Below are positions 6,344-26,787 of a stretch of DNA of 30,070 nt, one piece after another. The notes under the pieces were generated by a model. The model ran no database searches. It worked only from the letters and a program-made list of their open reading frames with translations, and was not told where the DNA came from. The number at the start of each line of letters is the position of its first letter. Position 1 is the stretch's first letter. The stretch is from a bacterium (GTDB lineage: Bacteria; UBP15; UBA6099; JAJRTR01). A program made the translations under genes and the position numbers. The stretch is taken from contig JAJRTR010000100.1 in the NCBI GenBank assembly GCA_024278215.1, forward strand, positions 1 to 30,070, read 5' to 3'.

Positions 6344-6480
6344 GTAATACTGCACCTGCCCGGCAAGTGAATGGTGATGGAGCATACTGAATAGTATGTG
6401 ACCGATCCCGAATCGCCGCTGCAACGGGCGTAGTATGGCATTGTCGCGATTTTCCGGATTACTTGGTGAGAAATCCGGGT
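6344..6480. repeat. Family 2 long-palindrome repeat, copy A
   Basis: This stretch aligns over most of its length with 14545-14675. Conserved blocks include CGGCAAGTGA, GACCGATCCCGAATCGCCG and CGATTTTCCGGATT. It contains a central hairpin (GCATACT at 6382-6388 pairing with AGTATGT at 6393-6399) and an end hairpin (CCGGATT 6454-6460 / AATCCGG 6472-6478, 11-nt loop). The left end is diverged compared with copy B and may begin close to the receptor stop codon at 6315. It occupies the space between the receptor and the porin and could act as a transcription terminator or an mRNA-stabilising structure. Confidence 0.85.
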
Positions 6481-6521
6481 TAAATAATATATCCTTACCC
6501 TGTTCAAGGGTGGATACCATT

Positions 6522-14496: not shown

Positions 14497-14681
14497 CTAT
14501 CCTGCATATTTCACCAATGCGGGCTCAAAATCAGGAGAATGCCTGTAATACAAGGCGCGGCAAGTGAGTGGTGCGGGAGCATACTGTTAGTATGCGACCG
14601 ATCCCGAATCGCCGCCGCAACGCAGTAGAATAGGCGTTATCCCGATTTTCCGGATTTCTTTGTGAGGAATCCGGGCTATCC
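14497..14681. repeat. Family 2 long-palindrome repeat, copy B (most complete)
   Basis: This is an imperfect palindrome of about 185 bp. The left end is hairpin CCTGCAT 14501-14507 / ATGCGGG 14517-14523. The next arm AAAATCAGGAGAATGCCT (14527-14544) is matched inversely by AGGCGTTATCCCGATTTT (14632-14649). The centre is GCATACT 14579-14585 / AGTATGC 14589-14595 with loop GTT. The right end is hairpin CCGGATT 14650-14656 / AATCCGG 14668-14674. It lies between the convergent gamma-subunit and beta-propeller genes and overlaps the 3' end of the latter. Exact ends are estimated from the symmetry. Confidence 0.85.
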
Positions 14682-15993: not shown

Positions 15994-16595
15994 TACCAGT
16001 GCCTTTTCAAATATTATATGGTTGTGTGCTGTTCCTCATTAACTGTTTGAGATATTCTATGAATCGATTACACACATGTCCAAAACAAATAATACTCATA
16101 GCCTTGTGAGCCAATTGCAAAATTATGTTCATAGCGAGGTCGAGCGAAATTGTTCAGAGCAAGGCGGAGGTATAAAATCCTCGCAGGCGTACTTGTAGAG
16201 TACGTCGAGGACGATTTTGCGCCGACAACACAGCTATCGACAATAGCAGCCGATCGCAGCAGAATCAGAATTTTGCAATTGGCTCTTGTGTTAATAACTG
16301 AACTTCTGCGTTTTCTATAGAAGGCAGTACCATGTCAAGAAAGAAAAGATGTAAGATGGGGTGTAAAAACTTCCAGCGACATTACAAGCCTGACGTGACA
16401 GTAGTAGTATTTCTGGAGATACGATCCGGAATTGAGATGCAAATTCAAGTCATGTCCCTCAAATCCTCACTTGATTTTGAAAAACGCACAAGTCAAGTTA
16501 ATGATAGAAATAAGGACGGTATAGTGTGAAAAGGCGTTTTTACATTAGAATAGTTGTGTGTTTGTTCGACATTGTTTTTTAAAAGCGGCGGTTTT
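15994..16595. other. Intergenic region between divergent genes, about 600 bp
   Basis: The space between the beta-propeller gene (-) and the RACo-like gene (+) holds a complete family 1 repeat at 16108-16285. To its left, 15994-16107 is AT-rich with a TATAAT match on the minus strand (16013-16018) but no good -35. To its right, a 65-codon open frame at 16332-16529 (rich in Lys and Arg at its start) has no recognisable similarity or strong ribosome binding site, and I do not call it a gene. No RNA gene was recognised. Confidence 0.6.
16108..16285 (+). repeat. Family 1 long-palindrome repeat, complete copy 2 (178 bp)
   Basis: This is the reference copy of family 1. It begins GAGCCAATTGCAAAATT and ends with its exact 17-bp inverse, AATTTTGCAATTGGCTC. 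The two arms remain imperfectly complementary through to a central hairpin, CGTACT - TGTAG - AGTACG, flanked by AAAATC / GATTTT. It is flanked by TTGT on both sides (16104-16107 and 16286-16289), which may be a 4-bp target duplication. It has no coding capacity, so it would be non-autonomous if mobile. Confidence 0.93.
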
Positions 16596-18455
16596 GTGGA
16601 AAAGACAGAAGAAATAACGGTTGAGTTTCCAGGTTGCGGGAAGAGTGTGCGTGTACGTGCGGGCGGCACGGCGTTCCGGGCGCTGGCGAAGGCCGGTGTC
16701 GGGATTCAGGCGGAATGCGGCGGCAGGGGCAAGTGTGGGAAATGTAGAATTCGCGTCGAGGGTGTGGCCGACCCGCTTACCGAACTGGAGAAGGCCCTGC
16801 TTTCCGCTGAAGATGCGGATTCCGGTGTGCGGCTCGCGTGCCTGTGCAAACTTTGGTCGGATTCGACAATCTCTGTGGAAACGCCTTCTGCAAACCTTGA
16901 TATTGCTGATTACCCTTTTGTTTTCAGAGCCGCGCCGGGTTTCGTTGTCGATAGCGCTTTGAAGGCAATAGGTCTCGACCTCACACCGCCCGGCGGGCAG
17001 GACAGACGTGCCGACCTTAGAAGAATTACAGATGCCCTGCCCTGCCCTGCGACGGGATCACTGTCGCGCCGGTCTCTTTCGGCACTTGCGGAAATTATAA
17101 GAAAAAACGACTTCAAAGTGACTTCTTATGTCGATGCCGGAAGGCTTTTGGAAGTAACTTCCGAAACGGCGGCAGGCGGTCCGTTCGGCGCGGGGATAGA
17201 TGTCGGCACTACTTCGATCTGCGTTTCTATCGCTGATCTATCGACCGGAGAGATCGTTGCTTCCGCCATGTCGATGAATCCACAGCGAATGTACGGCGCG
17301 GATGTGGCTTCGCGAATAAATTTTGCTAAAACGGAACGGAACGGACTGGAAAAACTCAGAAGGCTTGTCATAGACAAGGTGCAATCGTTAATAGAGTATG
17401 CCGCAGCCGGGGCGGGCATCGGTCCCGATGAAATAAGAAAGCTTACGCTGGTGGGGAATCCGACGATGACGCACATTTTTCTTGGTGTTGATCCCGCCTG
17501 GATCGCACCGGCGCCCTATATCGCACCGACGACGACGCTGCTTGATTTTCGTGCGTCCGACATCGGAATAAAAATCGGCGGCGGCGCGCGACTCAGCATT
17601 CTGCCCGCGGCGGCGGCATATATCGGAGCCGACGCACTTGCCGCCGGTCTCAGAATGAGGCTGCACGAAAGCGGCGCGACACGGCTGCTGATAGACCTGG
17701 GAACAAACGCCGAGATACTGCTTTCCATCGGCGATACAATATATGCGTGTTCGGCCGCCGCAGGCCCGGCGCTCGAGGGGGCGCATATAAAATGTGGAAT
17801 AACCGCGCGGTCGGGCGCAATTTCAGAAGTGCTCATCGACGATACAGTCCATATAAAAACAATCGACAACGCCCCTCCTGCCGGTCTATGCGGCACAGGG
17901 CTACTCGACTCGATCGCCGGTTTGCTCGAAAAAGGCATCATAAACCCATCGGGCAGGCTCGGCTCGGAGATACCGGACCACCTGCCTGTCGAGTTGACAG
18001 ACAGGCTCATCCCCGCCGGCCCGGACACGGAATACACGCTGACCGCCTCGGACAGCAGTTCCACAGGCAACGCAATCGTTTTGACCCAGAAGGATGTTCG
18101 TGAAGTGCAACTCGCAAAGGGGGCGATAAGAGCCGGTGTCGAATTCCTTCTCGAAGAAGCAAACCTATCGCTCGACAACATTGACAAAGTGTATCTTGCC
18201 GGCGCGCTGGGTACCCATCTGCGGCCCGGGAGTGTGCTGCGCGTCGGACTGCTCCCGCCTGTCGCTCCGGAAAAGATTTCTTTCGTCGGCAATGCCGCAC
18301 TCGACGGCGCGCTCGAAGCACTTCTTTCCGAAGACATTCTCCGCGCCGCCGAAGCCTTCGCTGATAAGATACACTACATCGAATTATCCGCCCTGAAATC
18401 ATTCACCGACAGATTTGTTGAATCCATGAGATTCTCAACAGGCGTCGGGACATAA
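16596..18455 (+). CDS. RACo-like reductive activator: 2Fe-2S ferredoxin plus ASKHA domain (DUF4445 family)
   Basis: Proteins of this family use ATP and a low-potential electron to return inactive Co(II) corrinoid proteins to Co(I) for methyl transfer. Using the GTG at 16596, the protein has 619 residues; an in-frame GTG at 16554 would add 14 (MCVCSTLFFKSGGF) without a ribosome binding site. The N-terminal 2Fe-2S motif is C41-x5-C47-x2-C50 with C82 as fourth ligand (C84 close by). A linker domain follows. The ASKHA ATPase fold starts at GAGIDVGTTS (DVGTT at about 202-206), with LTLVGNPTMTHIFLG, LLIDLGTNAEILL (about 365-377) and GLCGTGLLDSIAGLLEKG. It stands alone: no methyltransferase, corrinoid protein or CO dehydrogenase gene is in the window. 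Its exact target is therefore unknown. Confidence 0.92.
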   Translation: MEKTEEITVEFPGCGKSVRVRAGGTAFRALAKAGVGIQAECGGRGKCGKCRIRVEGVADPLTELEKALLSAEDADSGVRLACLCKLWSDSTISVETPSANLDIADYPFVFRAAPGFVVDSALKAIGLDLTPPGGQDRRADLRRITDALPCPATGSLSRRSLSALAEIIRKNDFKVTSYVDAGRLLEVTSETAAGGPFGAGIDVGTTSICVSIADLSTGEIVASAMSMNPQRMYGADVASRINFAKTERNGLEKLRRLVIDKVQSLIEYAAAGAGIGPDEIRKLTLVGNPTMTHIFLGVDPAWIAPAPYIAPTTTLLDFRASDIGIKIGGGARLSILPAAAAYIGADALAAGLRMRLHESGATRLLIDLGTNAEILLSIGDTIYACSAAAGPALEGAHIKCGITARSGAISEVLIDDTVHIKTIDNAPPAGLCGTGLLDSIAGLLEKGIINPSGRLGSEIPDHLPVELTDRLIPAGPDTEYTLTASDSSSTGNAIVLTQKDVREVQLAKGAIRAGVEFLLEEANLSLDNIDKVYLAGALGTHLRPGSVLRVGLLPPVAPEKISFVGNAALDGALEALLSEDILRAAEAFADKIHYIELSALKSFTDRFVESMRFSTGVGT

Positions 18456-18494: not shown

Positions 18495-18673
18495 GAGCCA
18501 ATTGCAAAATTCTGATTCGGCTACGGTCGGCTGCGATTGTCAACAGCAGCGTTGTCGGCACAAAATCTTCCTCAACGTACTCGGCGAGTACGCCTGCGGG
18601 GATTTTGCACCTCCGCCCTGTTTCTGCAAAATTTCGTTCGACCTCGCATCGAACATAATTTTGCAATTGGCTC
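18495..18673 (-). repeat. Family 1 long-palindrome repeat, complete copy 3 (inverted)
   Basis: This is a 179-bp copy in the opposite orientation to the other four. It has both perfect 17-bp ends (GAGCCAATTGCAAAATT and AATTTTGCAATTGGCTC). The centre reads CGTACT - CGGCG - AGTACG on the plus strand, so the loop differs from copy 2 while the stem is kept. No clear target duplication is visible (AATA before, AGTA after). Confidence 0.93.
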
Positions 18674-18698
18674 AGTAGAATGAAGATAACACTTTAGC

Positions 18699-18723
18699 CC
18701 GGATTTCCCGGTGAGAGATCCGG
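18699..18723. repeat. Solo family 2 end hairpin
   Basis: CCGGAT (18699-18704) pairs with ATCCGG (18718-18723) around a 13-nt loop containing GGTGAGA. The flanks TAGCCCGGATT match the inverse of the right end of family 2 copy B. No other part of family 2 is present, so this is a lone terminal hairpin. It lies about 58 bp upstream of the methyltransferase start. Confidence 0.6.
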
Positions 18724-18780
18724 AGCGTCTCGATTCCTTGATGATAAATATCGACAACATGACATCGGAGCACTAATATC

Positions 18781-22440: not shown

Positions 22441-22483
22441 GAGCCGCAAATTTCACAAATGCGATCGACCTCGCTGCGAACTG
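22441..22483. repeat. Decayed repeat remnant (family 2 end hairpin next to a family 1-like segment)
   Basis: CGCA (22445-22448) pairs with TGCG (22460-22463) around the loop AATTTCACAAA, which resembles the family 2 left-end hairpin at 14501-14523. Right after it, CGACCTCGCTGCGAAC is the inverse of the family 1 segment GTTCGAAGCGAGGTCG with one mismatch. It lies upstream of the aconitase gene. The match is short and the call is tentative. Confidence 0.35.
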
Positions 22484-22681
22484 ACTTTGTTGACATGGCA
22501 CTACCTTTTATAAAAACGCACAAATTCAGTAGTTAATCTAAATTGTTCCGGCCTGTTAAGTCAATGCCGCAACATAATTTATGTAATGCGTTGCTGCCTG
22601 TAATGCGCCGCCGAAAATTCAACGCTTTACAATTTCGCCGTAGTTTACCATAATCCTGATACGGAGTCTGGAGACACAGAG

Positions 22682-26705: not shown

Positions 26706-26787
26706 GAGCCAATTGCAAAATTATGTTCGTGGCGAGACTGAACGATTGCAGCCGGACACGGCGGAATCAGGATTTTGCGATCGGCTC
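26706..26787 (+). repeat. Family 1 repeat, internally deleted copy 4 (82 bp)
   Basis: The left end GAGCCAATTGCAAAATTATGTT is intact. The interior, including the central hairpin, is missing, and the right end is decayed (GATTTTGCGATCGGCTC against AATTTTGCAATTGGCTC). It lies downstream of the flavoprotein stop and upstream of the exported-protein gene. This is a fossil of the same element. Confidence 0.85.

Follow-up and report, generated by a model that had tools for sequence, protein, structure and literature searches.

Bacterial MITEs are usually treated as transposon remnants that are defined by their ends and whose middle is meaningless. Several described repeats resemble the element analyzed here, which we term Family 1. 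(i) The ERIC or IRU sequences of enterobacteria are long imperfect palindromes of ~127 bp that are intergenic, reach up to 711 copies (in Photorhabdus), and are regarded as MITEs (PMC10969869). Judged by the published description, they are like Family 1 in their palindromic structure, intergenic location, and high copy number, but they are limited to enterobacteria and Vibrionaceae and have one kind of ends, whereas the body of Family 1 occurs across phyla on several kinds of ends. (ii) The Chunjie MITE of Geobacter uraniireducens and the Correia/NEMIS elements of Neisseria measure 178 to 235 bp, are intergenic, and possess inverted ends and direct repeats (PMC10969869). They are described as short and non-autonomous, as is Family 1; a shared structured body is unreported for either. 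(iii) In Geobacter metallireducens, 24 "predicted short RNA elements" with the center GRCGTAGCGCTGCTACGCC lie between genes, and further multicopy sequences have no known function (PMC2700814); G. bemidjiensis contains palindrome-based multicopy families (PMC2996986). Like the superfamily described below, these Geobacter repeats are intergenic and have a central hairpin of the CGTAGC type; in the portions of the two articles consulted, they figure as unexplained repeats, and the text there does not treat mobility, ends, or a cross-phylum family. They may belong to the superfamily. (iv) MITEs of the IS1380 family (piggyBac-like) carry the same body in Acidobacteria, Deltaproteobacteria, Aegiribacteria, and Family 2 of the genome studied here and generate YTAR duplications; Family 1 differs from them in its ends and its target rule. 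In the open-licence literature, we found neither a relevant paper in which the core or end sequences are quoted nor one on a cross-phylum body with changing ends, which is weak evidence.

The stretch of DNA analyzed (the window; 30,070 nucleotides) is one whole contig (G000:C71:1-30070). Both of its termini lie inside Family 1 copies, as expected, since short reads break at repeats. The features identified are compiled in Table 1. The reference copy forms an imperfect palindrome of 178 bp; its 17-bp terminal inverted repeats are perfect, and TTGT flanks it on either side. The original prediction, made from the sequence of the window, listed five copies, and all of them are present as placed, but they are a small part of the ~330 copies of the genome. 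Their ends had been described as perfect or near-perfect, which is accurate for the reference copy and for the second full-length copy, whose 17-bp ends are perfect as well and which is devoid of an intact target duplication; the right end of the 82-bp copy has three mismatches. This 82-bp copy has also lost the CGTACT/AGTACG stem that all copies had been said to keep. The proposed long imperfect hairpin is borne out by a predicted folding energy of -71.0 kcal/mol for the reference copy, compared with -43.1 ± 4.3 kcal/mol for dinucleotide shuffles (z = -6.5). A search of the whole window with Rfam gave no match above the gathering threshold and none of relevance at a relaxed threshold. The segment between two Family 1 copies, at positions 16554 to 18455, encodes a RACo-type corrinoid protein reactivator (ferredoxin domain, RACo middle, and ASKHA domain). 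At L040:8951-8983, a 33-bp hairpin, GAGCCGATTG...AATCGGCTC, lies beside a tRNA-like sequence. A terminator function is possible for very short derivatives of Family 1-like ends.

Table 1. Family 1 and Family 2 features, with positions in the window unless a locus is named
Feature	Position	Strand	Remarks
Family 1 reference copy, full-length, 178 bp	16108..16285	+	
Target-site duplication TTGT, left	16104..16107	.	
Target-site duplication TTGT, right	16286..16289	.	
Left terminal inverted repeat GAGCCAATTGCAAAATT	16108..16124	+	
Right terminal inverted repeat	16269..16285	-	perfect complement of the left one
Conserved structured body, common to cross-phylum superfamily	16127..16265	+	R1 E=7.8e-32; R2 E=2.5e-19
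Core hairpin with conserved unpaired sides, CGCAGGCGTACTTGTAGAGTACGTCGAGGA	16182..16211	+	
Family 1 full-length copy, 179 bp, CGCCG-loop subfamily	18495..18673	-	body 18515-18654
Family 1 copy, internally deleted, 82 bp	26706..26787	+	
Family 1 copy interrupted by contig start	1..140	+	
Family 1 copy interrupted by contig end	29934..30070	+	
Family 2 body, ends of CCCGGATT / CCTGCAT type	14517..14658	+	R1 E=7e-9
Partial Family 2 copy	6358..6484	+	
Other Family 2 places	window 18693-18733; L044:8652-8835; L053:2808-2990		

The whole 4.55-Mb genome (207 contigs) was searched for the 17-bp Family 1 end, with up to 2 mismatches permitted. We retrieved 332 forward and 330 reverse motifs and none in either direction with a reversed-pattern control; the genome thus contains ~330 copies, which make up ~1.3% of its length. 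Ends were paired into elements in 1.33 Mb of sampled stretches, picked partly because they hold copies, and the resulting 97 elements include 52 of 178 bp and 22 of 179 bp (together 74 of 97), as well as small internally deleted forms of 46 to 169 bp. Exact direct repeats of 4 bp border 60 of the 95 sampled copies, compared with a mean of 2.1 and a maximum of 9 when right flanks were shuffled, and flanking duplications of 3 or 5 bp are rare in this sample. The duplicated sequences are AT rich and share no fixed motif. Empty sites were then sought within the same genome by joining flanks and searching for the products. The copy at L189:5166-5343 (TTAC duplication) lies in a dispersed repeat of which L188 contains the uninterrupted version, ...CCCATCTTAC|GTCTTTTC, with a single TTAC; the copy at L048:5470-5647 is inserted within a Family 2 element; and the copy at L202:9199-9376 has a 5-bp ATTTG duplication by comparison with an empty copy elsewhere in the genome. 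These empty sites and duplications are sequence-level proof of insertion. The genome harbors more dispersed repeats (window 22454-22543 and 16312-16343; the L189:5166 region, L159, L175, and L188; for example, CTTTTATCGTTTTTACGC...GTCTTTTCTTTGTTGACA), some of which carry Family 1 insertions. Divergence from the consensus in 86 full copies ranges from 0.6% to 29% (median, 4.8%), from fresh through decayed, and the terminal repeats are the best-conserved part, with the lowest mutation (3.5%).

Taken together, Family 1 is a mobile, high-copy, non-autonomous element that behaves as an ordinary MITE: it is shorter than 500 bp, has inverted repeats with exact ends, a duplication of fixed length, and empty sites, and possesses no transposase of its own. 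Several points of the original prediction are settled by these data. Its intergenic placement is supported by 17 of 76 insertion points falling within ORFs, compared with 334 of 400 random points (crude ORF calls). The TTGT flanks, noted for one copy, represent a genuine 4-bp target duplication, as do the flanks of many other copies; empty sites, which it suggested looking for in related strains, occur within other repeats of the source genome; and the MITE option agrees with precise ends, 4-bp duplications, empty sites, and graded decay. Its REP-like option does not stand, as the element is 178 bp long with target duplications and is not a 20- to 40-nt tagged repeat. A REP/REPIN-type element moved by a RAYT (TnpA-REP) single-strand transposase would likewise be palindromic, intergenic, and of high copy number and would suit the single-strand asymmetry of the superfamily (see below). 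We nevertheless hold this to be extremely improbable, given that 4-bp target duplications are unexpected from RAYT chemistry and that the length of 178 bp does not fit; in addition, there is no GTAG/CGTC-tagged 20- to 40-nt unit at an end, the hallmark of REP elements (PMC3733652).

The search for a parent transposase with the ends of Family 1, which the original prediction suggested as a check, yielded none. In the source genome, the PF01609 profile retrieved three transposases, none with matching ends; PF13701 retrieved a short IS1380 remnant only; and PF13586 and PF05598 retrieved no transposase. The larger stretches examined in the 1.33 Mb, bracketed by the terminal repeats, contain ordinary genes only. 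In six genomes of the same order, the Family 1 end sequence is absent, and the PF01609 copies carry other ends. A blastn search of plasmids gave chance matches only, and among viral contigs the core gave chance matches in coding sequence and the Family 1 end none. The parent is hence absent, unassembled, or outside the four transposase families searched. The 4-bp duplication and the form of the ends nonetheless argue for a DDE transposase acting in trans. Some insertion sequences of the IS5 family presumably have GAG... ends and short duplications of 2 to 4 bp, which recalls the GAG-N7-CAAAA ends and the 3- to 4-bp duplications of Family 1, but we found no IS5-type transposase with Family 1 ends. 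In a genome of the same order (G001), locus L223 contains a DDE_Tnp_1 transposase gene bracketed by ends CCCGGATTCGTCAATAGAA; it is a candidate mobilizer of Family 2-type ends.

The same-order genome G005 gave a blast match to Family 1 (72% over 158 bp). This match and two core matches in unrelated genomes prompted a scan of named genomes for CGTACTT-N(3-7)-AGTACGTCGAGGA, which retrieved multicopy palindromes of 180 to 185 bp in a deltaproteobacterium MAG (VGTG01, with many near-identical copies), in Acidobacteria, in Candidatus Aegiribacteria, and in others. Core matches in Streptomyces (L085, L097, and L120) were rejected since they look like coding sequence, and the arms of the two that were compared (L085 and L097) show no likeness. 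The ends differ by family: foreign members have YTAR followed by CCCGGATTTCTCACC (IS1380-like) or CCTGCATTTCTCACC; Family 1 has GAGCCAATTGCAAAATT; the G005 members, of which there are three full copies, carry the same body on GAGRCTCTAACAAAA ends with 3-bp TTA/TAA duplications; and others differ again. The foreign members have direct 4-bp duplications, including the non-palindromic pairs CTAA/CTAA and TTAG/TTAG. Family 2 consists of 183- to 184-bp palindromes with YTAR + CCCGGATTTCTCAC ends and the center GCATACTGTTAGTATGT, which are distant members of the body superfamily. At loci L261 and L263 (genomes G136 and G262), ~124-nt forms of the body lack the outer 25 to 30 bp and end in AGGCTGTTCAA/TTGAACAGCCT.

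These relatives raise the question of whether Family 1 is itself an IS1380-derived MITE like those of Acidobacteria and Deltaproteobacteria. The body is common to both, and the acidobacterium G388 encodes an IS1380 transposase (PF13701, E=1.5e-121) with ends CC.GCATTATTCACGAAA, which makes an IS1380-type parent plausible for the YTAR branch. However, IS1380-type ends (CC..G) with a YTAR 4-bp duplication are present in the foreign members and Family 2 and not in Family 1, which has GAGCC ends and inserts at any AT-rich 4 bp rather than at YTAR with CCCG ends, and the source genome contains only the short IS1380 remnant. We regard an IS1380 origin of Family 1 as very unlikely.

A sequence-only profile of the foreign arms found nothing significant in the source genome, and structure-aware models were therefore used. 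Pairwise in-register tests were significant for several members (L079, L136, L128, and L031) and not for coding-sequence controls. The covariance-model search of the source and other genomes envisaged in the original prediction was productive. Model R1, built from the interior only of 20 sequences, has matches in 47 of 386 sampled genomes, mostly one per bacterial family and many of them multicopy. The other 339 sampled genomes, including five of the source's order, gave no match, so R1 does not merely report palindromes. Model R2 was also built from 20 sequences, with the source genome and its order left out; it is partly circular, as some of its training set had been found via the Family 1 core or via R1. 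With R2, the window copy scores E=2.5e-19, the copies in G005 between 7e-15 and 5e-13, one Family 2 copy (L053) 6e-8, and a Geobacter UBA4074 element (L117) 7.5e-8; in 565 kb of the source genome, the model matches 37 places, all but one at E values of 2e-9 or lower. The inner ~140 nt of Family 1 is a member of a cross-phylum superfamily.

We subsequently analyzed how the paired positions of the body change. Within Family 1, 329 one-sided breaks and 244 wobble changes were counted versus 23 compensated cells, a small excess over shuffles (mean, 7; maximum, 15) that was probably inherited from subfamily founders. The original prediction had named arms that diverge without compensation, together with imprecise ends, as fatal to its hairpin and mobility claims; the arms of the copies do diverge in this way, but the ends are precise, and between families compensatory change is massive. 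Since pairing is lost freely, single copies are not maintained as RNA genes. This bears on the possibility that the body serves the host as a structured RNA or as an RNA-processing signal (such as an RNase III or RNase E site or a terminator), which transposition would spread and which would be retained in 3' or 5' UTRs. The intergenic location and the strong fold would be in line with such a role, as would the precedents of ERIC and Correia, whose processing involves RNase E and RNase III (PMC10969869). Besides the free loss of pairing, it is opposed by the absence of the element from five of the six same-order genomes and by its setting: gene arrangement around insertions is the same as at random intergenic points, and orientation relative to tandem genes shows no bias (17 same, 12 opposite), so there is no sign of a position-fixed role. 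We judge a host function to be improbable.

Between families, the picture is different. In alignment A1 (20 distant members, plain MAFFT), both sides have changed in 41 of 54 pairs, and across the superfamily sets 37 to 41 pairs co-vary. Double-changed cells in A1 number 188, compared with 62 in shuffles (reached in 0 of 500) and 40 to 50 with slid partners, with the proviso that members are related and cells not independent; in a 36-member set, whose alignment was fitted to the structure and whose members are related, they number 420 versus 136. None of 500 shuffles reaches the observed value on any measure, and slid controls are ~4-fold lower in double-changed cells. The core stem has been rebuilt between members, as CGTACT/AGTACG, CGGGGT/ACCCCG, and CATAGC/GCTATG, one core-stem pair is G-U in most members, and unpaired motifs are kept, namely, CGCA or CGGA opposite GAGG in the core and AAGGC, AACGCAG, and GCAGYAGAA elsewhere. 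In all 20 distant members, the predicted fold of the plus strand (orientation set by the core) is more stable than that of the complementary strand, and this still holds for 19 of the 20 when the core is left out. Among arm pairs picked irrespective of strand, 73 G-T were counted versus 32 A-C, compared with 135 versus 95 in shuffles. Without the core, the arms of Family 1 are almost strand neutral, and G-T mismatches are no more frequent than A-C in its copies; the single-strand claim hence rests on the wider superfamily. The candidate RNA strand of the body is the one carrying GTCGAGGA. The covariation between families and the strand-specific stability point to a single-strand structure. On this comparative evidence, the body would carry a conserved single-strand structure, probably RNA, that matters to the lineage.

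The same data can be read in terms of a plain MITE, whose palindrome would derive from transposase-binding repeats in both arms or from inverted duplication of the ends of an insertion sequence, whose symmetry would be kept by template-switch correction of quasi-palindromes, and whose body would have no role as a folded strand. The uncompensated decay of Family 1 copies, their A-C mismatches, and ends and target duplications as in any DDE element agree with this reading, as do the many compensatory transversions that lack G-U intermediates. Correction would, however, erase the mismatched motifs and the G-U pair that are fixed across phyla, and neither the greater stability of the plus strand in all 20 members nor the retention of the body while the ends change is accounted for. 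We consider the plain MITE possible, though doubtful.

The explanation that we consider highly probable is a joint one, in which Family 1 is a MITE moved in trans and its body an old cross-phylum structured module under a requirement for single-strand folding. An inferred DDE-type transposase would use the 17-bp ends (GAG-N7-CAAAA type) in trans, excise or copy the element, and ligate it into AT-rich intergenic DNA cut with a 4-bp stagger, which would leave a 4-bp direct duplication. The ~140-nt body would be an old module carried on differing transposon ends, with differing target duplications, across phyla. Its evolution would be constrained by the need for one strand to form a single long, irregular hairpin in which the internal-loop motifs are fixed, as covariation and strand asymmetry suggest, and it would most likely fold as RNA or single-stranded DNA at a step that aids the multiplication or tolerance of the active lineage, an inserted copy then being free to decay. 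Most economically, active MITE copies would be selected for their folded strand and decay after insertion, and the differing ends would reflect replacement in evolution rather than independent capture. This suggests one conserved folded molecule traveling on several types of transposon ends. More tentatively, and with considerable doubt, we propose that the body may be viewed as a selfish nucleic acid with a structure of its own, most likely an RNA or perhaps a hairpin of single-stranded DNA, whose spread through many bacterial phyla came about by repeated acquisition of terminal repeats from different transposons, the tips and target rule being exchangeable and the folded body the conserved heritable part.

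At minimum, these data identify a MITE of ~330 copies that amounts to ~1.3% of a genome and breaks its assembly. In the superfamily, the middle is conserved across dozens of bacterial families, and it is the ends and the target-duplication rule that vary. If this holds, it would define a class of structured mobile element, with a covariance model for finding its members, and would bring the scattered "multicopy palindromes of unknown function" together as a single family open to testing.
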